Source: Thermoplasmata archaeon
Lineage (GTDB): Archaea > Thermoplasmatota > Thermoplasmata > Thermoplasmatales > Thermoplasmataceae
Reading direction: 5' to 3'
NCBI GenBank assembly: GCA_021797555.1
Contig: JAJZZM010000005.1
Span: 62,001-126,000, forward strand
Length of the DNA: 64,000 bases
Part shown: in pieces, positions 22,792 through 43,750 of the stretch
How positions within the stretch are numbered: the first letter of the stretch is position 1
Layout: each line of letters starts with the position of its first letter
The notes under the pieces: model-generated
Seen by the model: only the letters and a program-made list of their open reading frames with translations
What the model was told of the DNA's origin: nothing
Database searches by the model: none
Translations under genes and position numbers: made by a program

Positions 22792-24201
22792 TTAAATTAA
22801 ATCTCCATTTATTAATTTATTTGCCATGTAATTTATCATCCTTTTTGAATTCATAAATGAGAATATTATTATTAAAATTATTAAATAAAATAATGATATA
22901 TAAATTATATTATTTAAAAACATTGAAAGCATAAACATTATCAGAAATGAAATATATAAAATAAATAATGGAATTAACTTTTCTATATTTTTCCCGCCAT
23001 TAACAAAATTGTGTATGCCATCATAATCAGTTATTTGAACAGGTGATATCATAATATATGAATAGATAAGTATTGCGGCTGTTGCAGATGGCATTATAAG
23101 GATAAATAAAAATATCATTATATATAATATATTAAAATAAAAAACAAGCAACAACCCGCTAAAGAAGATAAGCGGGCCAGTTGCAATAAAAACTGATAAT
23201 ATTATCGAGGCAATTAAATTTTTGATATATTTATATGCATTAATTGATGTGAGTGAAAGCCAGGGCCTTTCCATTAATACTGGCCATGTGGATACAGTAA
23301 TGGAATACACAATCCCTGGTAAAAATGCAATATACATGTCTATAAGTAAAATTATAAATGTATTGTATAATCTAATATTCAGTATAAAATAGGCAACGCC
23401 TATAAATGAAAATATTATAACCGGTTTGTATATCCCCGATCTTATTGGATATATTTTCACACTTGAAAATGATCTGTACACATACAATGTATTTACATAA
23501 AATGCATTTTTCCTATAAATGGTTTTTAATGGTGATCCAGAGATATTCTGTGGTTTCACATTATTTTTAATTTTATTTTCCTTATAACGGAAATTAAATT
23601 TATCCAGGTTTTTTATTATATAGAACAATGATAATGAATATACCAGTAATAATATTACTATTCCATTAATTGTATAACCATAAAATATTGATGTTATATC
23701 GTATTTAAAATTAATAAATCCCGGAATTAATAAAAAGACAAAAAATAAGGCCGGAATTAAATAACCGTACTTTAAAATATATTTATAAATAATGCCCATA
23801 TTAATGGATGTAAAAAATAATAATATAATATAGGGTATTAATAAAAATACTAAATGAGAACTTATTGAAAGAGTTGAGAAGATGATGGATAATATAATAA
23901 AAGTGTATAATATTATAAAATTATACACATAATAAGCTTTTAAAACATCTTCTTTTTTAAGTGGTATACTTAATAAAAAATCATGGTCGGATTTATTTAT
24001 ATAAAATCCGGATAATAATACAATAAAAATTGAAATAATGGAAATGGAAATTGCTGAAAATTTTCCCTCATGCAAATTGATATTGGATGAATAAAATATG
24101 GATAAAACCGGAATAATCATAAATGTAAATATTATTATTAAAATATAATAGCCAAGAGGTACTTTTGTTTTCAAAAATAATTTTGTTAATGTATATTTCA
24201 T
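22792..24201 (-). CDS. ABC-2-like membrane protein (permease), paralogue of the convergent gene
   Basis: This 469-residue polytopic protein shares HDFLLSIPLKKEDVLKAYY, the NISGSPLKTIYRKNAFY segment and ERPWLSLTSINAYKYIKN with the neighbouring permease. Its start overlaps the ATPase stop by four bases (24198-24201), so the two are translationally coupled and form one exporter. Two paralogous permeases beside one ATPase suggest a heterodimeric channel. The substrate is unknown. Confidence 0.78.
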   Translation of the reverse strand: MKYTLTKLFLKTKVPLGYYILIIIFTFMIIPVLSIFYSSNINLHEGKFSAISISIISIFIVLLSGFYINKSDHDFLLSIPLKKEDVLKAYYVYNFIILYTFIILSIIFSTLSISSHLVFLLIPYIILLFFTSINMGIIYKYILKYGYLIPALFFVFLLIPGFINFKYDITSIFYGYTINGIVILLLVYSLSLFYIIKNLDKFNFRYKENKIKNNVKPQNISGSPLKTIYRKNAFYVNTLYVYRSFSSVKIYPIRSGIYKPVIIFSFIGVAYFILNIRLYNTFIILLIDMYIAFLPGIVYSITVSTWPVLMERPWLSLTSINAYKYIKNLIASIILSVFIATGPLIFFSGLLLVFYFNILYIMIFLFILIMPSATAAILIYSYIMISPVQITDYDGIHNFVNGGKNIEKLIPLFILYISFLIMFMLSMFLNNIIYISLFYLIILIIIFSFMNSKRMINYMANKLINGDLI

Positions 24202-24899
24202 GAAATCATCCTTGATATTACGCTTTCTATTGTTTCATCTCCAGTTTTCCTTGATTCTATTTCCGATAATTTCCCGTTGAATATTATACTGCCATTATTT
24301 ATCATAATAATATTTTCAGTAAAATTTTCGGCTATTGACATTTCATGTGTTGAAATTAAGAATGTTGAATTCATTGTTTTAAAATATTTTATAATTTTTT
24401 CCTGTGTTGGTATATCTATATAATTAAATGGCTCATCAAGAAGAACTATTTCAGGATTATGTATTATTGATAATGCTATGGATAATCTCTGCTTTGTTCC
24501 CCTTGATAAATTAGAAACCATTGAATTTAAATAAGAATCGAGGCCGAATAAATCTATTAAAAATAAAATTCTTTTTTCTAAATTGTTAACATTTCTTAAT
24601 GATCCTATGTAAAGCAAATTCTCCTTTTCTGTTAGATTAATATACGGTAATGCCTCCTCGGCCAGATAGCCTGTGATTTTTTTAGCCTCATCAGATCCGG
24701 GTTTGTTTCCCTTTATTGATACATTTCCGGTATCAGGGCTTATAAGGCCCGAAATTATTTTTAATATTGTGCTTTTCCCGGCCCCGTTTGGGCCTATTAA
24801 TGAATAGCTTTTATTGCATTCAAGGGAAAATGATACATTGTTTAAGGCATACTTATTTCCATATTTTTTTGTAATAGAATCGAAGTCGACACAGTACAT
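24198..24899 (-). CDS. ABC transporter ATP-binding protein
   Basis: This 233-residue protein has Walker A IGPNGAGKST (about residues 34-43), the signature NLSRGTKQRLSIA (about 130-142), Walker B EIVLLDEPF and the H-loop STHEMSIAE. It is the motor of the ABC-2 exporter with the overlapping permease gene. The segment ENLLYIGSLRN (24590-24626) is mirrored by an old spacer in CRISPR array 1, which encodes the near-identical peptide ENLLYIVSLRK. Confidence 0.92.
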   Translation of the reverse strand: MYCVDFDSITKKYGNKYALNNVSFSLECNKSYSLIGPNGAGKSTILKIISGLISPDTGNVSIKGNKPGSDEAKKITGYLAEEALPYINLTEKENLLYIGSLRNVNNLEKRILFLIDLFGLDSYLNSMVSNLSRGTKQRLSIALSIIHNPEIVLLDEPFNYIDIPTQEKIIKYFKTMNSTFLISTHEMSIAENFTENIIMINNGSIIFNGKLSEIESRKTGDETIESVISRMIS

Positions 24900-25230: not shown

Positions 25231-28074
25231 TTTTTAATCCTATTAAGGTTATTATTTAATATTTGTATTAATTCATTAAACAATATCATTCTCTTTCAAT
25301 CCTATTTAGGTTATTATTTAACTTTTTCTTAATGAGACTATATAAAGCAAATTCTCTTTCTTTCAATCCTATTTAGGTTATTATTTAATTTCACAATATA
25401 AGTCTTTGGCAGTTTTTATTGTATTCTTTCAATCCTATTTAGGTTATTATTTAATTTTTTAACCTTGACAATAGACCATAACAAAGTTAAATCTTTCAAT
25501 CCTATTTAGGTTATTATTTAATCATCCCTTTTATCAGTGCCTTAAATCCAGATTCTGACTTTCAATCCTATTTAGGTTATTATTTAATAAGTCTGATAGA
25601 CAGCATTTTGAAACTCTCCAAGAGTCTTTCAATCCTATTTAGGTTATTATTTAATCTTCAAATCCGTATTACGAAATAAATGGAAAAGTTTTCTTTCAAT
25701 CCTATTTAGGTTATTATTTAATCACAGAAACAAATGCAGTTTATGGAAGCATAGGAACCTTTCAATCCTATTTAGGTTATTATTTAACATTTTAGACAAT
25801 GTCAAAAAGATAAAGCGGGAAACAGCTTTCAATCCTATTTAGGTTATTATTTAATCACAGAAACAAATGCAGTTTATGGAAGCATAGGAACCTTTCAATC
25901 CTATTTAGGTTATTATTTAATTTGCTGCCCTTTTTTGTGCCATTGTTGCCATTTTCATTCTTTCAATCCTATTTAGGTTATTATTTAATATAATAGACGG
26001 AAACGGCAATTCATTAATACCTATAGCTTTCAATCCTATTTAGATTATTATTTAATAAAAGCATCAGGGTCATGGAATGGATATCTAAATAATTCTTTCA
26101 ATCCTATTTAGGTTATTATTTAATATTACATTACAGTATAAAACTGACTTCCCGGTAAAGCTCTTTCAATCCTATTTAGGTTATTATTTAATTAAACTCT
26201 GGATACTCAGTAGCAGTAAGCCAGCCTTCTTTCAATCCTATTTAGGTTATTATTTAATTAATCATATTCTTTTTTTTCATTCATTTTTAAGACCTTCTTT
26301 CAATCCTATTTAGGTTATTATTTAATTAAAACATCTCTTTAATTAAAAGAGGAAAATTTTCATTCTTTCAATCCTATTTAGGTTATTATTTAATTATTAC
26401 AGGTCATTACTTTCAGGTGGGGTTGGAAATCTTTCAATCCTATTTAGGTTATTATTTAATCCAGAAATAACAATACCAACAAGTGATTGGGTGTCCTTTC
26501 AATCCTATTTAGGTTATTATTTAATCTATAAAGTAGTTCTCAGTTATACCCAGGTAGGGAGCCTTTCAATCCTATTTAGGTTATTATTTAATTTACCAGA
26601 TAATCCAAACTGAATGGGAAGAATATTTTACTTTCAATCCTATTTAGGTTATTATTTAATTATTATTTTTTTTATGTGTCCCGATCTGTCCCAATACCCT
26701 TTCAATCCTATTTAGGTTATTATTTAATTAGATAATAAAAATAGCCTATCAGTGCTATAAACCCTATCTTTCAATCCTATTTAGGTTATTATTTAATTTT
26801 TACTATTTCAATGACAGAAAACACGGAAAATTTCTTTCAATCCTATTTAGGTTATTATTTAATATATCATACGGCATACTTGATGTGCTTGGCGTTACAC
26901 TTTCAATCCTATTTAGGTTATTATTTAATTAAAGAATATTATAAATAGCAAGTTAGATTTTTATATCTTTCAATCCTATTTAGGTTATTATTTAATAATT
27001 CGTTAAAATTTTTAGAGATAACGGCATACAAACCTCTTTCAATCCTATTTAGGTTATTATTTAATTATAATATTCTCTAAAATCCTATGTTAATGTTAAT
27101 TTTCTTTCAATCCTATTTAGGTTATTATTTAATACGGATAATAAGGATAAATCATTCGTTGCCAGTGCATACTTTCAATCCTATTTAGGTTATTATTTAA
27201 TGATCCCAATATCATCATATATCCAGCAAAAGACAGCAGCTTTCAATCCTATTTAGGTTATTATTTAATTATGACAGAATATGAACAAATATTTTTTTAG
27301 TGATTATTCTTTCAATCCTATTTAGGTTATTATTTAATATGAAAGTATGGGTTTAATGTTCTCTATTTATGATTTCTTTCAATCCTATTTAGGTTATTAT
27401 TTAATCAAATGATATTCTTGAAGTTTACGCCAATCCAGAAGACTTTCAATCCTATTTAGGTTATTATTTAATTTATATAACAGAATTATATATGTAACAA
27501 TGAAAATCTTTCAATCCTATTTAGGTTATTATTTAATCAACAACGGCTATTAAAGCCCCAATAAATATTTCCAACTTTCAATCCTATTTAGGTTATTATT
27601 TAATATAAGATTAGGCATTAGGGGAATACCACCATTGGTTCTTTCAATCCTATTTAGGTTATTATTTAATATCCCTGTCATTATACCTTATTTCAAAGGT
27701 CTTTTCTTTCAATCCTATTTAGGTTATTATTTAATTTTCTATATTTTCTATATTTTCCATTTTTTACACCCATCTTTCAATCCTATTTAGGTTATTATTT
27801 AATATAATATCGATAACTCCAGGAGAAACAGGATATATATCCTTTCAATCCTATTTAGGTTATTATTTAATCACAAAGTTCTTCTCGCTTGTACCGAAGC
27901 CGAGTGTCTTTCAATCCTATTTAGGTTATTATTTAATCATCCCTCATTTTCCACCTCTAAAATATCATCCTTATGCCTTTCAATCCTATTTAGGTTATTA
28001 TTTAATTTCCAGTCAGAGACAAGATGCTGTGATTCACCTGAAAACTTTCAATCCTATTTAGGTTATTATTTAAT
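25231..28074 (-). CRISPR. CRISPR array 1, about 43 repeats, read leftward
   Basis: The 30-bp repeat begins CTTTCAATCC and ends TTATTATTTAAT on the plus strand. Spacers are about 34-39 bp. In crRNA sense the repeat ends in ATTGAAAG, the usual 8-nt tag. I count 42 good repeats plus a degenerate one at 25231-25260, which marks the old, leader-distal end. Most repeats end in T on the plus strand (A at crRNA-sense position 1). At least two, ending at 25322 and 25788, end in C like array 2. Spacers 25723-25758 and 25856-25891 are identical. Confidence 0.98.
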
Positions 28075-28586: not shown

Positions 28587-29558
28587 TCACTTCCTTGATA
28601 TATATGGTTTGTATTTTTTTCCCTCCAGAATATACTTTTCAATTTTATATAATTCAAGTCTTATTAAATATTTATAAGAAACATATCTTTTTAGTGATGA
28701 AGAATAAACAGTTTCCTGCAATTTATCATCAAACATTTTTACCACTTTTTTTCTACCATTTTCATTTAGGAAAACTCCATTTTCCTCTAGAAAATCAGAA
28801 TCTTTAATAATTTTCAATTTAACCATTTTTATGGCTAATCTGTCACAAATTAATGGTTTAAATATTTCTGATACATCAAGGCTTAAGCTATTCCTTCTTT
28901 CAAACGGTTCATGCAAAAATGATATGGATGGATTTAAATGGGTTAAAAATATTTGGCTTTCAATAATTGAATATAAAAGCATATTTAAAAAACTAATTAA
29001 AGCGTTCATTTTATTTCTTGGTGGTCTTCTGCTTCTTTTTATTATTCTGTAGTGTTCTGGCAAATATTTATCTATTATATTTAAAAAATTATTTCTAAAA
29101 TTCCCCTCATAGCTCATTAGCTGATTAATGCCCCTAGATTCCATAATCTCTTTATATGGTATTCTTATGGTACCCATATTTCCTCTTTTCAGTATAATAG
29201 CCATATTACGGGCTGCACCATAGACAAAAATTCTTGCTATTTTAAGCCTCTCATCCATATTATAAGCTTTTATTGCCTGGTTCATAATAACCTTTCCACT
29301 TAAAAGGTAATCTTCTGGAATTAATGAGGAAATATAATTATCATACATGGACATGAAAAAAACAGATACATTATTCTTTGATAATATTGATATTGCTGGT
29401 TTAGTTATAGAGACGTTTCCGGATATAACTATTGATTCAATATTTTCTAGTGGGATAATTCTATTCTCATTGCTATTTGAAAATTTTAAGGTATCGCCAT
29501 CCCGGTTTATTGTTCCAGATGATATTATATAATATGTCTGCATTTTTAACACCAGCAA
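28587..29558 (-). CDS. cas1: Cas1 spacer integrase
   Basis: This 323-residue protein starts with the Cas1 beta domain (YIISSGTINRDGDTLKF, then IPLENIESIVI). It has the catalytic residues in the order Glu in LMSYEG, His in FLHEPFERRNSL and the acidic residues in SLDVSEIFKP. It integrates new spacers at the leader end with Cas2 and, in this operon, probably with Cas4. It overlaps cas4 by 13 bases. Confidence 0.96.
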   Translation of the reverse strand: MLVLKMQTYYIISSGTINRDGDTLKFSNSNENRIIPLENIESIVISGNVSITKPAISILSKNNVSVFFMSMYDNYISSLIPEDYLLSGKVIMNQAIKAYNMDERLKIARIFVYGAARNMAIILKRGNMGTIRIPYKEIMESRGINQLMSYEGNFRNNFLNIIDKYLPEHYRIIKRSRRPPRNKMNALISFLNMLLYSIIESQIFLTHLNPSISFLHEPFERRNSLSLDVSEIFKPLICDRLAIKMVKLKIIKDSDFLEENGVFLNENGRKKVVKMFDDKLQETVYSSSLKRYVSYKYLIRLELYKIEKYILEGKKYKPYISRK

Positions 29559-30058
29559 AAATCACTATAACTGCAACCGTGAAGGCAAAAATAATTCCTC
29601 ACCGGATCTGGAGGGGAATTCATATTTTTTAGCTTGTTTATATTTTCATAGCTTTTATATAATTCATTTAAATTATCATCATTAAGTTCTACATCAACAA
29701 CTTTTTTAGACCCTAAAAAATGTAGCTTACCAATTATTTTATGGTTTTCATTTAATTTAATTAGATACATATAATGCAAAATTTGCATTTTATCAGCATT
29801 AATCATTTTATAGCCTCTTTTATATTCATGAACTATTATAGTGTCTTTATAAATCTGAACATTGTCCATTGCCGACCTTCCAATACTTAATGGTGTGCCC
29901 TTTCTATCCCTATTAGCAAGATATGAGCCATCCATAACATAAAACGAATCCCTGACATAAAAAATTTCATGCAAAGAAAGCCATGCTCTTCTCATGCATA
30001 TATTAACATAGCTTACATCTATTCCACGGTATTCATTTGGATCATACTTAGTCTTCAA
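29546..30058 (-). CDS. cas4: Cas4 exonuclease
   Basis: This 170-residue protein has one cysteine near the N-terminus (NICMRRAWL) and three more in the C-terminal CLHGCSYSDFC cluster, the set that binds a 4Fe-4S centre. In between are the RecB-like residues: IGRSAMDNV, TIIVHEYKRG (catalytic E-K) and LHYMYL. Cas4 trims pre-spacers and selects them by PAM. It overlaps cas3 and cas1 on either side. Confidence 0.94.
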   Translation of the reverse strand: MKTKYDPNEYRGIDVSYVNICMRRAWLSLHEIFYVRDSFYVMDGSYLANRDRKGTPLSIGRSAMDNVQIYKDTIIVHEYKRGYKMINADKMQILHYMYLIKLNENHKIIGKLHFLGSKKVVDVELNDDNLNELYKSYENINKLKNMNSPPDPVRNYFCLHGCSYSDFCWC

Positions 30059-31790
30059 TTGAAATCACCTTTAATCTATCTTGGTCTGCAGTGGAATATA
30101 TTATATCTTTTAATTTTTCATCAAAAATAATATTTGTAAATAAATTCCTAATTTCACTTATTTCGACATCAGCGCAATCTTTAATTTTTTTACGTGCATT
30201 ATATATCTCGGAATAATCTATAACCATGTTGCAGAATGGTATACCTGAAACCTTTAAAGAAATTTTTAGTGGCTTGCTTCTGCTATTTAATGCTTTGTTT
30301 CCAACAATATCTTTAAATCTCCTTATCCATATTTCACTATATTCAGTATCAATATCTTTGCCATCCAGTGTTAAATCCTTAATTTTTATCTTTCTATCAC
30401 CATTTATGAAAGTTTCCATGGTTTCCTTATAATTATTCCACCACGTCTGTATAACATTTGCAACTTTCTTATTATTTTTAATAAGATTATTTTTTAATAT
30501 TGCATTATTAATTACAATAAAATCAAGATATCCGTGCCTTATTTCCTTATAGTCTTTAATAAACTCTCTGTAAAGTGCATACCTCATCCTATAAGAAAAA
30601 TTCTCTGCTATTTTAGCTATTTGTACTCCAAGAGAATACTCGCCAAATTTTCTTTCCCGTTTAGGAAATATTTGATAAAATTTATCTATTAACTTATCAT
30701 AATTTTCTATTTTGCAATCAAAGTTTTTTTCTGATATATTTTTTAAAATAATATATACATTTGAATATTCTGATCTACCCCTGCCAACCCTGCCTAGGCG
30801 TTGTTCCAGGTTTACTGCTGATTTGCCAGGTTCTATAACAACATTTTCTGTTGCTGGTATATTTATTCCCTGCTCCAAAATATTAGATGATAAAATAATC
30901 CTCCTATTCCAGTTTTTATCATTATGATACCCATCAAAAAGACTTATATCGTTTGGATTTACTTTATGATTCAATAATTTATTATATACCATTTCTATGC
31001 AAATTATTTTATCTAGTATAAATAACCATTTTCCATTATTTATTGATTTTATATTTTCATCTATAAAATCTTCTATTTTCTGGTTATAATATATGTTTAC
31101 ACACAACGGGCCCTGGATTATGTCACTTCCGTCTATTTGCCTTTTTACATTGTATTTTATAATCCTATTTTCACCTATAGCTTTTTCAAGAGGTTCTAGA
31201 AAGCTATAGTTTGGGGTTGCAGATGTTAAAAGTATCTTAAATGAACGCTGAAGTATATACATAATAGCTGCTATTTCCTTTAATTGTTGAATATTATAAA
31301 CATGAAATTCATCTATTATTATTAAATTAAAGCCATTTTTTCTTAATAATGATATTTCATCTATTCTATCACTTATTGTATATTTATTAATTACCAGCCT
31401 TAATAAAATCTCAGGATTGGTTACTACAAAGTAGTTATCATCAAAAGGTGAACTTATTAGTGAATTAAAAGCACTTTTTCTATCCATGCCTTGGCTATTT
31501 TCTATTAAATCCAGATCACTAGCAGTAATTTTTTTAACATTTTTACCCATTTTTTTAATATCATTATATACCTGTTCAACCAGCTCATTGTTTGGCATTA
31601 TTATTAAAACATTGTTTTTTTCATTTAACATATAAAATCCAAAAGTTTTTCCACTGCCTGTAGGTGCTTTTAATACCATGACTGAATGCTCTTTATCCTC
31701 TAAAAAATCCTTCATGGCTTTTTGAAATTCTCTTATGCCATTCTCAGTATTTATATAAGATGGTCTAATATTATAATGAATATAATTCAT
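30048..31790 (-). CDS. cas3: Cas3' helicase of type I-D, without HD domain
   Basis: This 580-residue superfamily 2 helicase has motif I LKAPTGSGKTFG (about residues 40-51), motif II IIDEFHVYN (DEFH box), motif III LLTSATPN, and motif VI NLEQRLGRVGRG. No HD nuclease domain is fused, as expected in type I-D, where the HD domain resides in Cas10d. It unwinds target DNA after interference-complex binding. It overlaps csc1 by 20 bases and cas4 by 11. Confidence 0.92.
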   Translation of the reverse strand: MNYIHYNIRPSYINTENGIREFQKAMKDFLEDKEHSVMVLKAPTGSGKTFGFYMLNEKNNVLIIMPNNELVEQVYNDIKKMGKNVKKITASDLDLIENSQGMDRKSAFNSLISSPFDDNYFVVTNPEILLRLVINKYTISDRIDEISLLRKNGFNLIIIDEFHVYNIQQLKEIAAIMYILQRSFKILLTSATPNYSFLEPLEKAIGENRIIKYNVKRQIDGSDIIQGPLCVNIYYNQKIEDFIDENIKSINNGKWLFILDKIICIEMVYNKLLNHKVNPNDISLFDGYHNDKNWNRRIILSSNILEQGINIPATENVVIEPGKSAVNLEQRLGRVGRGRSEYSNVYIILKNISEKNFDCKIENYDKLIDKFYQIFPKRERKFGEYSLGVQIAKIAENFSYRMRYALYREFIKDYKEIRHGYLDFIVINNAILKNNLIKNNKKVANVIQTWWNNYKETMETFINGDRKIKIKDLTLDGKDIDTEYSEIWIRRFKDIVGNKALNSRSKPLKISLKVSGIPFCNMVIDYSEIYNARKKIKDCADVEISEIRNLFTNIIFDEKLKDIIYSTADQDRLKVISIED

Positions 31791-32442
31791 TCATAACATC
31801 TCCTTTTATAGGGCCTGCTATTATATAATTATTCAATATTGAATACATTTGCAGGTCATTTGCTTTAACATTTTTTCTAAAAATGTTTTTAATTGTAAAT
31901 AAGTTTATATAAACATTGTTTAGATCCTCTATTTTACCTATTTTTTTATAATTAACTCTAATTAATCCAGTTTTGCCGTTTCCAACCCTTAATGCAGATG
32001 GGAGTCTTTCTATATTTAAATCTGTTTTAATTGCAGCATAAAATTTATTTCCAGGCCTTATTGGTTGCACAAAATAAAAATTTTTATACATATAGCTTCC
32101 AACACGGTATAATGGATTTAAATTGGTACCATTATAATCTATTCCAAGCATTGTATTTCTGTAAAACATTTTCATATATCTAACTGAAAAGGTATTGTTT
32201 TTTATTCTGCTTTCAGGTACTGCCACAGTCCAGAGCGTTGAAAAATTTTTTATCTCATCATAATCTGGTTTTTTAATGTCTAATTTATGATGATCAATAT
32301 CGCCTGAATAATACGCTGTTGCATAATCCAGTGCAAGATCCCCAATAAAGGGACCTGTAAGCATGCCCCCTCCAGATTGTACTGTATAGTATTGTACCGG
32401 GCTTATATTGGTTATTTCACACCAGTATATCATGTGTATCAC
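31771..32442 (-). CDS. csc1: Csc1 (Cas5d-type subunit of type I-D)
   Basis: This 223-residue protein is placed as Csc1 by its GPFIGDLALDYATAYYS segment (about residues 30-46), its length and its position right after csc2. It is a Cas5-family RAMP protein that holds the 5' tag of the crRNA. It begins directly after the csc2 stop with no gap. Confidence 0.85.
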   Translation of the reverse strand: MIHMIYWCEITNISPVQYYTVQSGGGMLTGPFIGDLALDYATAYYSGDIDHHKLDIKKPDYDEIKNFSTLWTVAVPESRIKNNTFSVRYMKMFYRNTMLGIDYNGTNLNPLYRVGSYMYKNFYFVQPIRPGNKFYAAIKTDLNIERLPSALRVGNGKTGLIRVNYKKIGKIEDLNNVYINLFTIKNIFRKNVKANDLQMYSILNNYIIAGPIKGDVMNELYSL

Positions 32443-33375
32443 CTATTTACCGGAGAAAAGTTTTTCCCACTGCTGTCCAATTTTTTCATTTACTGGTTTG
32501 TAAAATTTCTCTGCCATCTCCATAGTGCTTACTGATTCTTTTGCCCCTTTGATTATATTATTTAAATCATCTCCCTTGATTATATTGTCTTTATATATAT
32601 CATCCATTTTTTCAAGAAGCAATTTTTCAGGGTTATATTTATCAAGTTTCCAAGCCTCCTGCATTACTGTATATGACGATATTGGTTTTTCTCCCTTTGA
32701 CAGGCCTATTGCTATTATATTATTTTCCATATTATCTCCAAGGATTGCGGTTCTTCCACCATATCTTGTAGTTTGAAGTGTTGTTGCAAGCTGTAAATAA
32801 AGCAATTCAAGGCTTACGTTTTCAAGAGTTATAAATCTTATGAATTTGGTATTAGGCTTTATATAATTTACATCATATATAGCATTTGATGCAACACCAC
32901 TTTTATCTCTTAATATTGCACCGCTTTCATCCAGGCTGTTGTGCTGTAAATTTAGTGTAATCTGTGTTAGTTCTTCATAACTGTATGACCAGTCATAATA
33001 ATTTCTTGCTGCAATTGCGGCTGCGTTGTCCTGCACACTGGTATCGCCAAATAAAAGGCTCATTGGATTTTTTAAATCATCCTTTTTAGCAACCATGTTT
33101 CTGGAATATTCAGAGCTTATCAGATTAAATTTTCTCATTAGCGAAGTGGCATAGCTTTTCTCCGGGCCACGCCATTTACTTGCCGGAACGATTGCTCTTA
33201 TACTGTTTTCAAATTCATCACTGGTAATCTCCCTTGGATCATTATTTCTATCTATAAAATATCCTGTAGTTGTGCTTACCATTCCTATTTTAACAACATT
33301 ACCATAGCTTTTCCTTATGTCAAGGCTATTTAAATCTATTATATAGCCAGATTCCATTAATTCGTTTACATTCAT
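32443..33375 (-). CDS. csc2: Csc2 (Cas7d backbone subunit of type I-D)
   Basis: This 310-residue protein has typical Csc2 features: SLLFGDTSVQDN (about residues 107-118), IKPNTKFIRFITLENV and TRYGGRTAILG. Csc2 is the Cas7-family subunit that polymerises along the crRNA spacer. The stop is TAG. It lies immediately after cas10d with no spacing. Confidence 0.9.
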   Translation of the reverse strand: MNVNELMESGYIIDLNSLDIRKSYGNVVKIGMVSTTTGYFIDRNNDPREITSDEFENSIRAIVPASKWRGPEKSYATSLMRKFNLISSEYSRNMVAKKDDLKNPMSLLFGDTSVQDNAAAIAARNYYDWSYSYEELTQITLNLQHNSLDESGAILRDKSGVASNAIYDVNYIKPNTKFIRFITLENVSLELLYLQLATTLQTTRYGGRTAILGDNMENNIIAIGLSKGEKPISSYTVMQEAWKLDKYNPEKLLLEKMDDIYKDNIIKGDDLNNIIKGAKESVSTMEMAEKFYKPVNEKIGQQWEKLFSGK

Positions 33376-35961
33376 TTATTCCACCTTTTTATTTTTTTTC
33401 TCAAAAAACTCTTTAGATTTAACAAGATAAAGATATTCAAATCCAGATATCAGGTATGTTTTAAGATTGCCTGATGGTAATTTTCCATGGAAATCGTCAT
33501 TAATCATTTTAATTAATGTCTTTGTAAAATTCCCGGTATTTTCAATAGGATTATTTTTATATTTTAGCCTTCTATCTGCTTCAACGTATAATTGTCCCGC
33601 ACACACATCATATAGTTCATCTAAAGGTTTTTTTGTAACCACCATCATCTTTTCCAGCACCTCAAAGCCATCCCTAAGAAGCCATGTTTTATCCGTATTT
33701 GAACCCCTCTCGCTTACTGCATTAAGTTTTACGGCTATTTCAGCCAGTTCTTCTAAATTTTTCATTTCAACACCCCTAATTTTTATTATTTCTCTAATCT
33801 TATCATAATAATTTAGAGAAAATAATTTTGCATTAACTGCATAGTAAAAAATTGCCATCGGCTCACTTGCCACGCTCCTCATAATTTTGTCCACTTTATT
33901 TGCACTTGTTGCCATTTTGAAATATAACTGAAGCTCCTCATCTTTTTTGTATAAGTTATCAATACCGATGGATGAAAATCCAAGCTCATTAAGTATTTCA
34001 TTGAAAATATTTATTTTAATTATTAAATTGTCCATCTCTGAAAACATGTTTACCGGAACCACTGATATATGCATTCCTGTTTTTTCAGCAAGGTTTATAA
34101 TATTTTTTATAAGGAAAATAAAGTCTAAATCCCTTCTCAAGGATTGTACAGGTATTTCTATGTAATCTCCGGTCATTGCCGGTATTTCTAGATTTCCTAT
34201 CGTTAATCCCATTTCAACATTTTTTGTGCTATTTCTTATATCAGATTTTTTAATCATTTTTAATATGCTTTCTATGGAGAATACAGGTATTGGCCCAGGA
34301 AACTTTGCATATATTACTGCATCGGCCGATTTTTTTAGCAATAATTTTCTTATCATATTTTCATACACAGAGATTGCATCTATTTTTCCGCCAGAATTTT
34401 TTATTGATACCACTGTTCTATTAGAAAATGTTTGATGGTTGACGCCATAAAGATTCTCCTCGATTGCATCTATTTTGGCTTGCCCTCCGGTTATCATTGA
34501 CATCTGGCTTTTTTCTGGCACATCTTCTATTTTTGGAATAAATGAGGATACTGTGCTATTAAGTACTTCATTAAAATTAATTTCACTATGCTGCTCTGCA
34601 TTTAGATTTTCTATAAGTTTTGAATTTATTGATTTCCAGTCCAGTGACATATCAGCCGCAACAAAAGGAACTATAAAAACTGATTTTTCTTTATCTTTTC
34701 CTATTAAATCTTTAAAGTCCATTAAAAGCTCCTTGAAATATCTTTCAACTGCATTACCAAGATCAGGTACTTCTATGCTTGGTTTAGAATTTAGGTATTT
34801 TAACTGAAATGCCCTAACAGAGAAAAGTCTTAATGCAAATTCTTTATCTATATCAGTTATATTATTTATTCCAGCATCACGATATGCTTTTTTTCCAGCA
34901 AAATCCATATAAAAATTTTCAATTCCTAAATTGTTTATTCTTATACTGTACTTTTCTGCTTCGTCTCTTTCATCATTGGATATTTCCCTGCTGGGCATAT
35001 GCAAAATTTCTCCTATGTTCTTTTGAGCGTATGTGTTTATTATATCCTTATTTATTCTTAAAAATCTTAGTATAGGTGCCCTTATAGTTCTGTCTGTCAT
35101 TTCTATTAACTTAGATCCTGGACTATTTAAAAGTTCATATAATTCTGTGTTAAAATTGTTTTGTACTTGGCTTAATTCATTTTCCTCTATTTTTTTCCCA
35201 ATATAATAAAGTCTGTTTTCCGTATCCCAAATAAATAAGTGGCATTCCAATTTATTGATATAATTTCTAATTGCAGATCTTACCAGCCCTTTTATGGCAA
35301 ATAATGAATTGTGCTGAAATTCAATAAAATGCACATCACTGGAATTTATTATAAGTTCTCCACCTAAATATATTTTTGCAGGAAAATTATCCTTATTTTC
35401 TGATCTGGCATAAAATGAGGAAATGCTATCAGCCAGAGTGGAAAATGAATTTTCAAAGCTCATATTCTCTAATGTGCTGTCTGTGTTAAATATATTTTCA
35501 AAGCTTGTTCCAAGTTCCGTTGAATAAGCCCCATGGCATATCTCTTCTATGCTAAGGTTTAATTCTATAGCTATGTTTTTTAAATTAGGATATTTTTCTA
35601 GTAAGTCTTTTATTTTTTCTTTGCAGTCAGGCATTGATATTTCATCGTTTGTCAATTTGTTATAATCATGGAATAAATAAATAAATGATGCTCTTTTTAA
35701 TTTATTAATATTATATTTTATCTCTTTATTCCTAATTTTGTATATATCAAGAATTCTGTATGCACACGCTATGCCGGTAATATAATGGTCTCGCATATCC
35801 ATGTCAACAAAATTTTTAAAATTTTGTCCACCCTTAACTGTAATTGCCCATTTTCCTATTTTTTTGTCATTATATATTTGCGGCATTATTGTTTCCATTA
35901 CATAATTCAGGCCATCAGATAAAGTATCATCAGAAATATTCTCTGAATATACGCCCTTCAT
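33376..35961 (-). CDS. cas10d: Cas10d (Csc3), HD-containing large subunit of type I-D
   Basis: This 861-residue protein is the signature of type I-D. The N-terminal third carries an HD-type nuclease pattern: His in MRDHYITG, the pair in IYLFHDYNK (about residue 112) and His in EEICHGAYS. The remainder is the Cas10-like region without a GGDD cyclase motif, as is normal for Cas10d. I see no CxxC zinc-finger pair. It overlaps cas6 by four bases. It provides target recognition and cleavage together with Cas3'. Confidence 0.9.
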   Translation of the reverse strand: MKGVYSENISDDTLSDGLNYVMETIMPQIYNDKKIGKWAITVKGGQNFKNFVDMDMRDHYITGIACAYRILDIYKIRNKEIKYNINKLKRASFIYLFHDYNKLTNDEISMPDCKEKIKDLLEKYPNLKNIAIELNLSIEEICHGAYSTELGTSFENIFNTDSTLENMSFENSFSTLADSISSFYARSENKDNFPAKIYLGGELIINSSDVHFIEFQHNSLFAIKGLVRSAIRNYINKLECHLFIWDTENRLYYIGKKIEENELSQVQNNFNTELYELLNSPGSKLIEMTDRTIRAPILRFLRINKDIINTYAQKNIGEILHMPSREISNDERDEAEKYSIRINNLGIENFYMDFAGKKAYRDAGINNITDIDKEFALRLFSVRAFQLKYLNSKPSIEVPDLGNAVERYFKELLMDFKDLIGKDKEKSVFIVPFVAADMSLDWKSINSKLIENLNAEQHSEINFNEVLNSTVSSFIPKIEDVPEKSQMSMITGGQAKIDAIEENLYGVNHQTFSNRTVVSIKNSGGKIDAISVYENMIRKLLLKKSADAVIYAKFPGPIPVFSIESILKMIKKSDIRNSTKNVEMGLTIGNLEIPAMTGDYIEIPVQSLRRDLDFIFLIKNIINLAEKTGMHISVVPVNMFSEMDNLIIKINIFNEILNELGFSSIGIDNLYKKDEELQLYFKMATSANKVDKIMRSVASEPMAIFYYAVNAKLFSLNYYDKIREIIKIRGVEMKNLEELAEIAVKLNAVSERGSNTDKTWLLRDGFEVLEKMMVVTKKPLDELYDVCAGQLYVEADRRLKYKNNPIENTGNFTKTLIKMINDDFHGKLPSGNLKTYLISGFEYLYLVKSKEFFEKKNKKVE

Positions 35962-36659
35962 TCATTCACCTCCCAGCAACCAAGACCCAAACCAGTTTTT
36001 GAACCAAGTCCTCTGTAATATAAAAGTTGGAGCATTTCAGGATCGGCCATTTTAAATTTTCCGTATAAAAGCAATGCCCTTAATTTTATTTTGTTGCTTG
36101 ATACCATAACACTTTTTACTTTTATTTTATCTATATCTATACTAAAATTTACATCAAATTTTTTACCTGTATATTTATAGTATGTATTTACCATCCATGC
36201 CTTTAAATTTGGCTCTATTTCGTTTTCCTGTGTAACAAAATTATTAAGCTTATCTTTATATCTTATAAGCACTGGCGACAAACTTTTAAAATTTACTATG
36301 TTATTAAATAAGGTCATTCTTGTATCCTTAATTTCATATATTGAAAATTTACTGTTTCCAATTCTCATTTCAGGATAAAAAGAAAAGGCTGCCTTTAATT
36401 TATTTATAAATTCATCGTCAAGAGATCTAAGAATAATAAAAAATTTATTTGTATATATGCCATTATCTTTAATTTCCCCATTTTTTGTTATTATTGAGCT
36501 AATGGTATAATTGTTTTGAAGCCTACTGTGCATATTTAGCTTTTCGCTGTACATAATCTGATTATATTTTTGTTGTATAGCAATGCCTGTATAGTAATTA
36601 TGATCAAAGGGTATAACCTGTTTTTCTGGGGATTTAAATTTTAATATTACCGATTTCAT
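35958..36659 (-). CDS. cas6: Cas6 pre-crRNA endoribonuclease
   Basis: This 233-residue protein begins SVILKFKSPEKQVIPFDHNYY with a conserved early histidine region. It ends with the Cas6 glycine-rich loop RGLGSKTGLGLGCWEV. It cuts pre-crRNA within each repeat, leaving the ATTGAAAG tag. It is the first gene of the leftward cas operon and starts 38 bases from the divergent Csa3-like gene. Confidence 0.9.
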   Translation of the reverse strand: MKSVILKFKSPEKQVIPFDHNYYTGIAIQQKYNQIMYSEKLNMHSRLQNNYTISSIITKNGEIKDNGIYTNKFFIILRSLDDEFINKLKAAFSFYPEMRIGNSKFSIYEIKDTRMTLFNNIVNFKSLSPVLIRYKDKLNNFVTQENEIEPNLKAWMVNTYYKYTGKKFDVNFSIDIDKIKVKSVMVSSNKIKLRALLLYGKFKMADPEMLQLLYYRGLGSKTGLGLGCWEVNE

Positions 36660-36697
36660 AGATACATTATTATATTAATTATTAATAAACTTTTCTA
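36660..36697. promoter_or_regulatory. 38-bp divergent promoter between cas6 and the Csa3-like regulator
   Basis: The gap is very short and very AT-rich, with ttattatattaattatt that can serve as TATA-like sequence in both directions. Two oppositely oriented leaderless promoters must overlap here. This makes it a natural site for regulation by the adjacent CARF-HTH protein. Confidence 0.5.
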
Positions 36698-37390
36698 ATG
36701 ATAGTACAAAATGAAGAAAAATATTCTTCTAATTTAGCTATAACATTTATAGGATTTACGGATTACTTGGTTTTGGAATTTTTAACTGCAGTTATACAGG
36801 ATTTTAAAGATTCAAAAAACATTGATTTTTTATTTGTTCAATCTAAAGATGCAGGCGATAAAAAGGATGTTGTATTAAAAATTAAAAGCAATTCAATTGC
36901 AAAAATTAAATCTAATTGGCCTGGTAAGGATATTAAGGAAGAATATGTGGAAAATGTATATGATTTTACTAACTATCTAAACATACTTAAAAAGTATAGT
37001 AATATACAAAATTTAATATTAAATGTTAGTTCAGGTCCATATGCGTATACATCTGCGGCTTCTATTTTTGGGCTTATGCACGGTTCTATTATTTATTATA
37101 ATATTTTAACAGCAACAAAAACAACATTTTTTAGGCCTATAAATACTAAGCCACTTAAATATATACTTAATTTAATACCAATAGATAGAGAAATAATAAA
37201 TATACTTAAAGATAAAAAAACTTGCACTGTAAACGAATTATATATATTAATGAGCCAAAATGGTATAAAATCAACTACAAGGAATATACAATATAGACTA
37301 AATGAACTATATTTAGAAGGGATAGTTTTGAAAAGTGGTAAAAAATCTACTTTATATTATCTTAATGATTTTATTAAAACTTTGTTATAA
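36698..37390 (+). CDS. Csa3-like CARF-HTH transcription regulator
   Basis: This 230-residue protein has a Rossmann-like CARF half, with NLILNVSSGPYAYTSAAS as the ligand-loop strand (about residues 105-122). A C-terminal winged helix follows (EIINILKDKKTCTVNEL, then RNIQYRLNELYLEGIV). Csa3 proteins bind cyclic oligonucleotide-like ligands and control cas genes or array transcription in archaea. It diverges from cas6 and ends just before the old end of array 2. Confidence 0.8.
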   Translation: MIVQNEEKYSSNLAITFIGFTDYLVLEFLTAVIQDFKDSKNIDFLFVQSKDAGDKKDVVLKIKSNSIAKIKSNWPGKDIKEEYVENVYDFTNYLNILKKYSNIQNLILNVSSGPYAYTSAASIFGLMHGSIIYYNILTATKTTFFRPINTKPLKYILNLIPIDREIINILKDKKTCTVNELYILMSQNGIKSTTRNIQYRLNELYLEGIVLKSGKKSTLYYLNDFIKTLL

Positions 37391-37452: not shown

Positions 37453-40400
37453 ATTTCAATCCTACTAAGGTTATTATTTAACTGATCCTCACAATACAAC
37501 TGTGTCACCAAAAATTGCACTCTTTCAATCCTATTTAGGTTATTATTTAACCATTTATGACGGTTATAAAGAGATAGGTAAGGAATGGCTTTCAATCCTA
37601 TTTAGGTTATTATTTAACGCCATTTTTACCGCCTCAGTTGAACCTCGAGTTCTTCTTTCAATCCTATTTAGGTTATTATTTAACAATAACACATAATATA
37701 TATTATTCTATGATAATTATCTTTCAATCCTATTTAGGTTATTATTTAACTATAAAACATACATATACCTAGATGTAACCTTATCCATCTTTCAATCCTA
37801 TTTAGGTTATTATTTAACTTGAACTCATTGAGCAATCCAGTTCTACCATTTCTGGCTTTCAATCCTATTTAGGTTATTATTTAACGCCGCAGGAAATATT
37901 CCTTGAAATAGCAAATTTACTTTCAATCCTATTTAGGTTATTATTTAACTCTATTTCATAGTATAATATCAAATAGTAGGTATTACTCTTTCAATCCTAT
38001 TTAGGTTATTATTTAACTGGCACATCGTCCAGGTAGATCCCCAAACACATGACTTTCAATCCTATTTAGGTTATTATTTAACTATAAAAAATACGGTGTG
38101 GTTAAAGTATTCCATAATTCTTTCAATCCTATTTAGGTTATTATTTAACTATGATTATCAACGGCTAATCGGTTTTGACAACGTTTATTACTTTCAATCC
38201 TATTTAGGTTATTATTTAACTAAAATCCGTTATTAAAAAAATTAAAATCATATTTCTTTCAATCCTATTTAGGTTATTATTTAACCTTCTGTGAAAATTT
38301 TTGTGTAATTGTCTGGGAAGTACTTTCAATCCTATTTAGGTTATTATTTAACCAACATTAGTTTTGATTTTGAACCCCTCAAAAGTCGACTTTCAATCCT
38401 ATTTAGGTTATTATTTAACTCTGATACAACTGCCTTGCCTATAACATTTCCATTTGTCTTTCAATCCTATTTAGGTTATTATTTAACCAGCAGAAATGGC
38501 AGTAATAGGCATAGGGATAGTTGTAATCTTTCAATCCTATTTAGGTTATTATTTAACTATCCTGGAACAAGTCCATATCAATACTAACACTTTTCTTTCA
38601 ATACTATTTAGGTTATTATTTAACTTACGGGAACTCGAACTACCTATGGAGGTCGTAATAACTTTCAATCCTATTTAGGTTATTATTTAACTAAAATACC
38701 GGAATTACAGCAAAAATTGAGGAATTATTCTTTCAATCCTATTTAGGTTATTATTTAACAAGGAAAATTGCTGTTCCAGTTCCAAGGAAAAATATGACCT
38801 TTCAATCCTATTTAGGTTATTATTTAACTGCATGATAGGGCAATCAAAGGTGTCAAGAGCAGGGTTCTTTCAATCCTATTTAGGTTATTATTTAACGTCT
38901 GGAGGTCCTCATGCCCGAGAAGCTGGGAAACACTTTCAATCCTATTTAGGTTATTATTTAACTTAAGGCCTTCCTTGAGGATTATATACGCAAGGATGAT
39001 CTTTCAATCCTATTTAGGTTATTATTTAACATTCAAATAATAATATAAATATCGTTGCAGATAATCTTTCAATCCTATTTAGGTTATTATTTAACCTCAT
39101 TAAACTCTTTACGTTCCTGTGCTATTTTTTCATTCTTTCAATCCTATTTAGGTTATTATTTAACAAAAGCATTAAGGAACATTCCGGAACATTAAAGAGT
39201 TCTTTCAATCCTATTTAGGTTATTATTTAACGCAACAAACGGAATAAGTGGCGCTGCAACTGATGCAGGCTTTCAATCCTATTTAGGTTATTATTTAACT
39301 TTGATTACGCCGTTTAAAATCAACACCACCGGCTATCTTTCAATCCTATTTAGGTTATTATTTAACAATATGTCCACTAATATCCGTGATATTCAAATAA
39401 CTATCTTTCAATCCTATTTAGGTTATTATTTAACTAGACATATCCGGCTGCTGATGCGTTCACGGTCAGGTTCTTTCAATCCTATTTAGGTTATTATTTA
39501 ACGAGGCAATTCCTGGGCGAGCAACAAGAATTTTCAACATCCTTTCAATCCTATTTAGGTTATTATTTAACCCTAAAACCCCCTTGATTTGGCGTATAAG
39601 ACTAACTCACTTTCAATCCTATTTAGGTTATTATTTAACAGATTCAAAAACTTCAAAAACTCAAAGAGGAGCTTTCAACTTTCAATCCTATTTAGGTTAT
39701 TATTTAACATAATTTTAACTCTGTGATTGGAGGGTGGTTTGAAGTGCTTTCAATCCTATTTAGGTTATTATTTAACCATATTGGTCAACCCAGACCCTTC
39801 AGTCTCAATATCGCTTTCAATCCTATTTAGGTTATTATTTAACATTCCTTTATTTGTTGATTTCAAATTATAAAAATAATCCTTTCAATCCTATTTAGGT
39901 TATTATTTAACGAAGATGGCGATGTGCCGTTGGGGAAGTACAGCTGGCTTTCAATCCTATTTAGGTTATTATTTAACTATAATTATCGGCGTCTTCATTT
40001 AATCCCAATTTTGTTCTTTCAATCCTATTTAGGTTATTATTTAACAGATATGAATGGGAAACTGAACCAATGTTATTATTAACTTTCAATCCTATTTAGG
40101 TTATTATTTAACTTTTCACTTGTAGGTCTTGGATCAGCCGCAGCAATACTTTCAATCCTATTTAGGTTATTATTTAACTAGAACAGGTGGAATACAGCGG
40201 AACAATAGGGAATTTCTTTCAATCCTATTTAGGTTATTATTTAACGCATACCAGATGTAAGCACGCTGGAAAATCTTATTTTCTTTCAATCCTATTTAGG
40301 TTATTATTTAACCAATATTATATCGGACCCATAGAAAAATGCTGCATCGCTTTCAATCCTATTTAGGTTATTATTTAACTTCTTATATTTTTGGGATAAA

Positions 40401-43400
40401 TCAAAGCTGTAATAAGGGCTTTCAATCCTATTTAGGTTATTATTTAACATTCAACATCAAACAATGCAATAGGCGACCACGCTATCTTTCAATCCTATTT
40501 AGGTTATTATTTAACGATAAAAAGTAATCTTTTGTAAATGATTTATACCATCTTTCAATCCTATTTAGGTTATTATTTAACCAGTAGATATGGCAATCGG
40601 CAATGTAAAAACTGATATAACTTTCAATCCTATTTAGGTTATTATTTAACAAGGGCTATTATGTTTCAGATGCATCCGCTGCGGGATTCTTTCAATCCTA
40701 TTTAGGTTATTATTTAACTCAGTAATTGTAAACCCAAATCCATCAGTAACCATACTTTCAATCCTATTTAGGTTATTATTTAACCACTTTATCAAATTCA
40801 GGCTCGGCAGGTGCAACAATCTTTCAATCCTATTTAGGTTATTATTTAACTAAATATTATTTGAATATTTTATATAAACTACTTTATCTCTTTCAATCCT
40901 ATTTAGGTTATTATTTAACTATAAAACATACATGTGTGTAGATGTAACGCTATCTTCCTTTCAATCCTATTTAGGTTATTATTTAACTAGTGTATAGGCA
41001 TTTAATATCGGTGTTCCGGCTATATTCTTTCAATCCTATTTAGGTTATTATTTAACTTTGTAATCGGCGTTGTTACGGCTATCGAATTAATCTTTCAATC
41101 CTATTTAGGTTATTATTTAACGGTTTTTTAGCAGTTTTTTGTATTTATGATTTTATCCTTTCAATCCTATTTAGGTTATTATTTAACAATGTTTGAATTC
41201 GTTAAAATTACAAAAGATATAACTTCTTTCAATCCTATTTAGGTTATTATTTAACCTCATGAAGAAACAAGAGGCAGGCATTTCCTTTATTACTTTCAAT
41301 CCTATTTAGGTTATTATTTAACTTCTATTTCTGCGGTGGTTATGACTAAAAATTGTGTTCTCTTTCAATCCTATTTAGGTTATTATTTAACGCAAATGAC
41401 GGCTATTCGGTAGCAATATCGCAATCATCTTTCAATCCTATTTAGGTTATTATTTAACTTTAGCGATCCTAAACTAAATATGTTAATGCAAATTTCTTTC
41501 AATCCTATTTAGGTTATTATTTAACACCGGTAAGGAACAGCACGGCACCGTAATGCCTTCTCTTTCAATCCTATTTAGGTTATTATTTAACGGCCAATCC
41601 GGATGATCCTGATGATCAGGGAGTATGCCTTTCAATCCTATTTAGGTTATTATTTAACTCGACGACATAACCTATGATGAGGAGAAAGAAAAATATCTTT
41701 CAATCCTATTTAGGTTATTATTTAACTTTCATCAAATTTTTCATATTGGTCCTTGTTTTTTATCTTTCAATCCTATTTAGGTTATTATTTAACTTGTGAT
41801 GCCGACCCGGATGCATGGTAGCCCGATACTGCTTTCAATCCTATTTAGGTTATTATTTAACTCTTTCTCCTGTACTTTAAATCTATAAGCGTCCACTTCT
41901 TTCAATCCTATTTAGGTTATTATTTAACTCTAAAACCTTATGAAAAATTTCATTTTCCCTTAATTCTTTCAATCCTATTTAGGTTATTATTTAACTCGAA
42001 TATGATAATTACAGTTATATTTCTTTAACTGACTTTCAATCCTATTTAGGTTATTATTTAACGATGCCTTCATTAGCCTTAAACGGAGTTTTAGAGGCCT
42101 TTCAATCCTATTTAGGTTATTATTTAACAAGGATAATAAAAAGTTGAGTAAATGAATTATTCAAAATCTTTCAATCCTATTTAGGTTATTATTTAACCCT
42201 AAAATACCCGCCTGAATAATATTTTCTAAAATTATCCTTTCAATCCTATTTAGGTTATTATTTAACTCTATATAATGCATAGCCATTTTCTTTAAGGAAT
42301 TTTACTTTCAATCCTATTTAGGTTATTATTTAACGCAATTCAGTAAAATAGACGAGTCTATGGAAACAACTTTCAATCCTATTTAGGTTATTATTTAACG
42401 GTGGTCCATCATGCTCTGCTGCCTGAATCACTTGCCTTTCAATCCTATTTAGGTTATTATTTAACCTCTAAAACTAAAAGATCTTGAGAGTGTTGATCAG
42501 GAACTTTCAATCCTATTTAGGTTATTATTTAACCAGCCAGTACACACAGGTTGGATCTGATAAGCCTGTTTATCTTTCAATCCTATTTAGGTTATTATTT
42601 AACCCTTATACAATAAAATGGGATATTATGGGGGAGCATCCTTTCAATCCTATTTAGGTTATTATTTAACAATGCCTCCTGATGCTGATATTTCAGCCAG
42701 CGGTTTGCCTTTCAATCCTATTTAGGTTATTATTTAACCATCATATATAACATCATCATGCAGAAAAACAATTTTCTTTCAATCCTATTTAGGTTATTAT
42801 TTAACATGTTCAACCTCTAAATATACACCGAAATTATACATCTTTCAATCCTATTTAGGTTATTATTTAACCTGATGATAGAGGCGGACACCCTTTATGA
42901 TGTGTTCAAACTTTCAATCCTATTTAGGTTATTATTTAACCTGGCATCTTCTGAATACTTTTTTACTTCATTTAAATCTTTCAATCCTATTTAGGTTATT
43001 ATTTAACTTAAACGAATTTGAAAAATCATTTTTTACCGTTTTTTCCTTTCAATCCTATTTAGGTTATTATTTAACTGTATATTCACAGTATTTTACAGCC
43101 AATGGCACGTACCTTTCAATCCTATTTAGGTTATTATTTAACTATGCTTGCATGCCCATAATCAACGCCGTTTTCCTTTATCTTTCAATCCTATTTAGGT
43201 TATTATTTAACCTTACTATAAACTGCACCAACATCAAGGTCATTAATATCTTTCAATCCTATTTAGGTTATTATTTAACTAAATTACACTAACATTATTT
43301 AATAAATTGCCATTTTCTTTCAATCCTATTTAGGTTATTATTTAACCCGGATCACTCCAGAATGAAAAAATCGGATCATACGGACTTTCAATCCTATTTA

Positions 43401-43750
43401 GGTTATTATTTAACTTCGTGTATTGCCATCATTATGAAGAAAATTATTATCTTTCAATCCTATTTAGGTTATTATTTAACCTTGAAAATCCCCCACACAT
43501 TGAATATAGCCAGAAATATCTTTCAATCCTATTTAGGTTATTATTTAACATCTGTATATGGCGGCGATTCATATAATACATCAATCTTTCAATCCTATTT
43601 AGGTTATTATTTAACCTGATAATGTGGATTTTAATAATAGGATTATCACATTCTTTCAATCCTATTTAGGTTATTATTTAACCTCCAGTGGAATGTTTCC
43701 CTTCCGTTTATTGATGATATCTTTCAATCCTATTTAGGTTATTATTTAAC
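37453..43750 (-). CRISPR. CRISPR array 2, about 94 repeats, read leftward
   Basis: The same 30-bp repeat as array 1 occurs here but with a final C on the plus strand (G at crRNA-sense position 1). I count 94 repeats and 93 spacers of about 35-39 bp. The leftmost repeat (37453-37482) is degenerate, marking the old end. One repeat at about 38597 has a C-to-A change in the core (CAATACT). Several apparent reading frames across the array come only from the repeat translation. Confidence 0.98.

Follow-up and report, generated by a model that had tools for sequence, protein, structure and literature searches.

A CRISPR spacer resembles the ABC-ATPase gene beside its own array and may derive from an allele of a related lineage

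How does a CRISPR spacer come to resemble a chromosomal gene that stands beside its own array? The question is raised by an archaeal genome of 1.94 Mb in 24 contigs, of which we analyzed a stretch of 64,000 nt (hereafter the window). A spacer at 25323..25359 (-) aligns without gaps to 24590..24626 (-) in an ABC-ATPase gene at 31/37 positions, or at 31/35 without the two low-end bases, with a spacing of 733 bp between spacer and match. The nearest named relative of the ATPase is that of Acidiplasma aeolicum (90% protein identity), and the genome was therefore taken to represent an Acidiplasma-like member of the Thermoplasmatales. The 469-aa partner of the ATPase is probably its membrane permease. 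An earlier note on this DNA had described the match; its coordinates and count proved exact, and the peptides that it gave agree with the minus-strand translations of spacer (KENLLYIVSLRK) and gene (KENLLYIGSLRN). It had also placed the spacer among the two oldest of array 1 and the array end less than 1 kb from the gene, and we indeed found the spacer to be second from the leader-distal end among 42, with 332 bp between the array end and the ATPase start codon. The features are listed in Table 1.

Table 1. Features of the window that bear on the spacer and its match
Feature	Position	Strand	Description
Partner protein	22792..24201	-	469 aa; no family match; pair conserved in A. aeolicum
ABC transporter ATPase	24198..24899	-	233 aa; single copy in genome (next paralogue 39%)
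Matched part of ABC-ATPase gene	24590..24626	-	Codons 92 to 104 (first base); 31/37
PAM-position codon 91	24627..24629	-	GAA (Glu) here; GTN (Val) in 22/24 nearest homologues
CRISPR array 1	25231..28074	-	43 repeats, 42 spacers; old end at 25231; minus-strand reading
Degenerate terminal repeat	25231..25260	-	3/30 changed
Oldest spacer	25261..25292	-	Resembles ATPase-proximal decayed spacer of A. aeolicum
Repeat, old side of spacer	25293..25322	-	Same as array 2 consensus
Spacer	25323..25359	-	37 bp; second oldest in array 1; crRNA sense AAAGAGAATTTGCTTTATATAGTCTCATTAAGAAAAA
Repeat, young side of spacer	25360..25389	-	Same as array 1 consensus
Type I-D cas genes	28587..36659	-	cas1, cas4, cas3′, csc1, csc2, cas10d candidate, cas6
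CRISPR array 2	37453..43750	-	94 repeats, 93 spacers; two spacers with GTA, GTT flanks

The repeat 3′ end in crRNA sense reads ATTGAAAG, which we take to be the usual crRNA 5′ handle; the minus strand is therefore the reading strand of both arrays, the leader of each lies at its high-coordinate end, and the degenerate repeat at 25231 marks the old end of array 1. Within this array, spacers 8 and 10 (25723-25758 and 25856-25891) are identical, and an AAC-type repeat variant at 25759 lies between them. The pair arose by internal duplication or by recombination, for which array 2, whose repeats all end in AAC, is a possible partner. Spacer 38 (27736-27773) has about 18 bases (ATTTTCCATTTTTTACAC) in common with spacer 17 of the A. 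aeolicum C145 array, an overlap of low complexity that perhaps reflects a target in common.

The cas block sits between the two arrays. By gene content (Csc1, Csc2, Cas3′, Cas6, Cas1 and Cas4) the locus is assigned to type I-D, with profile matches beside the arrays for Csc1 (E 2e-57), Csc2 (E 7e-16), I-D Cas3′ (E 5e-24) and Cas6 (E 7e-32). In these genes and in the flanks described below it is like the type I-D systems with a GTN PAM (PMC10212523); in contrast to them, the 861-aa ORF in the expected place of cas10d (33376-35961) matches nothing in Pfam or NCBIfam, and no profile confirms the small ORF where cas2 would stand. A 230-aa ORF between cas6 and array 2 (36698-37390), also without a Pfam or NCBIfam match, has a counterpart beside cas6 in A. 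aeolicum (25% identical) and is possibly a CARF-type regulator, judged by eye.

The type I-D PAM is GTN in Synechocystis and GTH in Microcystis (PMC10212523), and the earlier note had reasoned from a GTN-type PAM. Two spacers of array 2 are in line with it. Spacer 64 (41727-41763) matches A. aeolicum contig C252 (L131:2388) at 33/37 with a GTA flank, inside a large gene that reads by eye as primase/helicase-like, and its target is probably an element common to both species. Spacer 33 (39640-39678) matches genome G005 (L132:5811) at 34/39 with a GTT flank, in a region that encodes an integrase as well as a large, repetitive protein of surface type (functions again read by eye), probably a provirus or integrated element. 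These flanks agree with a GTN PAM from two independent matches only.

We screened all spacers against their own genome by BLAST of both arrays and by window-level scans. Among the 135 spacers of the two arrays, the scan sets spacer 25323-25359 apart as an outlier at 84% identity, the next reaching 72%. The maximum from 300 dinucleotide shuffles of the spacer was 28/37. When array 1 was compared by BLAST with all 1.94 Mb of the genome, the spacer gave the top match outside the arrays (E 5.9e-5), followed by a match of a low-complexity T-rich spacer (E 2.1e-4). It matches the gene at 24198..24899 and none of the 26 other ATPase matches in the genome. By these comparisons, spacer and gene are truly homologous.

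In crRNA sense, the protospacer begins exactly at codon 92 of the ATPase, i.e., at a codon boundary, so the PAM bases are those of codon 91. The crRNA-strand 5′ flank of the resident match is GAA and not GTN, as the earlier note had observed. Across the 24 distinct nearest homologues (43-90% identity; records L022 and L050 are one contig), codon 91 is hydrophobic in 24/24: 22 have Val, encoded by GTN, one Leu and one Ile. Glu91 is found in the resident gene only (1/25 aligned homologues). Judged from this alignment, the ancestral codon was very probably a Val codon, i.e., a usable PAM, with its loss confined to the resident lineage. One T-to-A change is enough to turn GTA into GAA, and two changes are needed from GTT. 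The source of the spacer is most likely an allele of the same ATPase gene with a Val91 GTN PAM.

The six mismatches fall at crRNA positions 3, 18, 23, 24, 36 and 37; position 3 lies in the seed, and positions 4-17 form an uninterrupted match of 14 bases. With the relatives as outgroup in the alignment, mismatches 3, 23, 24 and 37 look like spacer-side changes and 36 like a gene-side change. Mismatch 18 is ambiguous: the spacer has T, as do most relatives, and the resident gene and A. aeolicum have C. The resident match is thus not one that permits interference, given its GAA flank, its mismatch at seed position 3 and its six mismatches overall, and the earlier note's view that mismatches and flank avoid self-targeting held up. 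Lacking a PAM and mismatched in the seed, the resident gene should be neither cut nor repressed, and the spacer should be inert toward it. It could still act on an incoming allele that is GTN-flanked and matches better, which would bias exchange against related alleles.

We looked for the source in genomes, viruses and plasmids. No perfect protospacer, of the kind that the earlier note had suggested looking for in another ABC ATPase gene, turned up in IMG/VR, in phage or plasmid records or in 419 Thermoplasmata genomes, and the 419 genomes (order and class searches) contain no site with three or fewer mismatches to the spacer. The best other genome is that of A. aeolicum, at 29/37 with a GTT flank, so that no related chromosome searched matches better than the resident one. 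IMG/VR holds no relative of the ATPase protein, and four spacer patterns retrieved no convincing source there, the best viral full-length identity being 27/37, as expected by chance. None of 72,556 plasmid records carries an ATPase relative of at least 60% identity, and phage records gave chance-level matches only. The virus, phage and plasmid collections, in which we found no protospacer, hold few Thermoplasmatales elements. A viral contig (L100) with about 21 bases in common was rejected as source, as it matches at 25/37 overall and in a different reading frame. Of the homologous source on a foreign element or in a sister strain that the earlier note had proposed, the homology is real (shuffles reach at most 28/37), while the foreign origin found no donor. 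The source is most likely an allele of the ATPase gene from this or a nearby lineage, absent from the collections.

Compared to A. aeolicum, the surroundings of the gene have changed more than the gene. There, a type I-D locus adjoins the same ATPase-permease pair; three decayed repeats lie immediately upstream of the ATPase, and the cas block (L021:1-7053) is inverted relative to that gene, as against 28587-37390 here. The Cas6, Cas10d, Csc1 and Csc2 proteins of the two are 29-47% identical, compared to 90% for the ATPase and 71% for the permease, so the type I-D CRISPR module beside the gene has turned over, replaced in one lineage, while the gene stayed. The oldest spacer (25261-25292) ranks 1/135 in similarity to the ATPase-proximal decayed spacer of A. 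aeolicum (L021:7155-7235; shuffle P 8e-4). The extreme array end may therefore predate the species split, and the oldest spacer is possibly common to both species. Descent of spacer 25323-25359 in common with the second decayed A. aeolicum spacer is not supported (P 0.17).

We tentatively favor, with a probability of roughly 0.48, the hypothesis that a closely related lineage supplied the spacer, from its allele of the same chromosomal gene with a Val91 GTN PAM, and that the spacer is now an inert relic. DNA of a sister strain or species would have entered the cell, e.g., by mating, uptake or transduction, and the spacer would have been captured from the donor allele of the ABC-ATPase gene, whose Val91 codon would have been the type I-D PAM. 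Most of the six differences would be the donor allele's own. As the resident Glu91 (GAA) provides no PAM and position 3 is a seed mismatch, interference by the crRNA would be impossible, and the spacer would persist as a relic. Two steps here are inferred: a GTN codon in the donor, and a donor other than the cell's own chromosome. There is precedent for spacers against chromosomal genes of related archaea (Brodt et al. 2011, PMC3285040).

Two features of the sequence bear on this hypothesis. The 60 bp of flanking repeat contains no decay mutation, and since both repeats equal an array consensus, one would hardly expect four to five decay mutations confined to the spacer; this slightly favors a sister-lineage donor over self-acquisition, an argument that is weakened if the repeats are kept uniform by selection or recombination, as they may be. 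In addition, the mismatches are spread over codon positions 1/2/3 as 1/1/4, a pattern like that by which the coding sequences of the gene differ between the two species (19/7/66), and one that would favor a donor allele. A molecular-clock argument that set spacer-gene divergence against the dS of 0.67 between species was dropped, 37 bp being too weak. Several points stand against a sister donor: its sequence was not found in the collections searched, the source gene is the array's own neighbor, which self-acquisition predicts equally, and the spacer encodes Val where all close homologues carry Gly or Ala, which is odd for a functional donor gene. Likelihood placement on the gene tree (with L054 left out of the final run) also joins the spacer weakly to the resident gene, the resident tip being best by 0.8 log units; an AU test excluded none of the placements.

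A close rival, nearly as good, is that the spacer originated from the cell's own chromosome. The resident ATPase gene would have been sampled in an array-side hot spot, the PAM lost (V91E) by mutation or allele replacement from GTN to GAA, and the rest left to drift; in a variant, these events took place in another lineage and the array and cas block were imported later. We regard self-acquisition followed by escape as a real possibility, if a somewhat less probable one than a sister donor. The 733-bp proximity, the placement on the resident tip, the Glu that is unique in 25 aligned homologues and falls exactly at the PAM, and the module turnover at this site all speak for it. Hot spots of this kind are reported: PMC7521656 describes acquisition by archaea close to their CRISPR loci, from their own DNA and in the course of mating, with Pyrococcus furiosus and Haloferax mating as cited cases, and E. 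coli is reported to acquire spacers upstream of its CRISPR-1 array (PMC10011333). Since most new spacers in Haloferax mating came from around CRISPR loci, again according to PMC7521656, proximity is compatible with a sister donor as well. Against self-origin, divergence at six of 37 positions would require that the spacer persisted for a long time or that the allele was replaced, and yet the repeats on both sides show no decay. Nor is there another match to an array's own neighborhood among the spacers of this genome, the 115 of A. aeolicum (compared with one neighboring contig) or the 135 of genome G004 (compared with 40 kb). The further claim that autoimmunity forced the radical V91E change in a transporter ATPase, through a spacer from the array-side gene that then lost its GTN PAM, with the spacer left as a trace of the event, strikes us as unlikely.

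A copy of the ATPase borne by a virus or plasmid is improbable as the source, and is the least supported version of the earlier note's proposal. Mobile elements are the usual source of spacers, and two other spacers of the same system match element-like DNA, but the virus and plasmid searches above returned no convincing source, and the ATPase is a conserved chromosomal gene adjoining the CRISPR locus in both Acidiplasma-like genomes. That the spacer came from an unrelated virus gene and resembles the ATPase by coincidence is very improbable: the genome is AT-rich and other spacers reach partial genome matches of 25-30 bp at E 1e-3, but the shuffle and BLAST results above argue against chance, and the match lies less than 1 kb from the array, in codon register and next to a codon that is GTN in relatives. 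Least probable of all is regulation of the ATPase by partial complementarity, CreA-like or CRISPRi-like, for which a single nearby target and the 14-base unbroken match could be cited, but the target is in coding sequence and not in the promoter, with no PAM and with a seed mismatch, unlike the CreA-like pattern of a seed match and PAM in a promoter, and the crRNA has the sense of the ATPase mRNA and is therefore unable to pair with the transcript.

The spacer has parallels in three known situations. It is like the archaeal spacers against chromosomal genes (PMC3285040; for Haloferax, work cited in PMC12814878 and PMC7521656) in that a non-mobile gene is matched at sub-perfect identity and a related lineage is implied, and unlike them in that the host here keeps the ortholog beside the array and the donor genome was not found. 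With self-targeting spacers that have mutated PAMs or mismatches (PMC6990116) it shares an own-genome match beyond chance and a self copy without a PAM; it differs in having six mismatches instead of an exact match, and in that relatives polarize the PAM loss to a unique Val-to-Glu change. As in the acquisition hot spots near CRISPR loci (P. furiosus and Haloferax, PMC7521656; E. coli, PMC10011333), the source gene lies less than 1 kb from the array, but here there is one old, natural spacer and not an experiment, and self-acquisition is only proposed.

Under either origin, the spacer adds to the known archaeal chromosomal spacers and founds no new kind. The phenomenon is already known; its PAM-loss signature is unusually legible here. 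If the PAM was lost after self-acquisition, a single natural genome would preserve both spacer and escaped codon, relatives would show the state before escape, and an autoimmunity-driven protein change would become testable. Given a sister-lineage donor, the spacer would testify to exchange of chromosomal DNA among Acidiplasma-like archaea.
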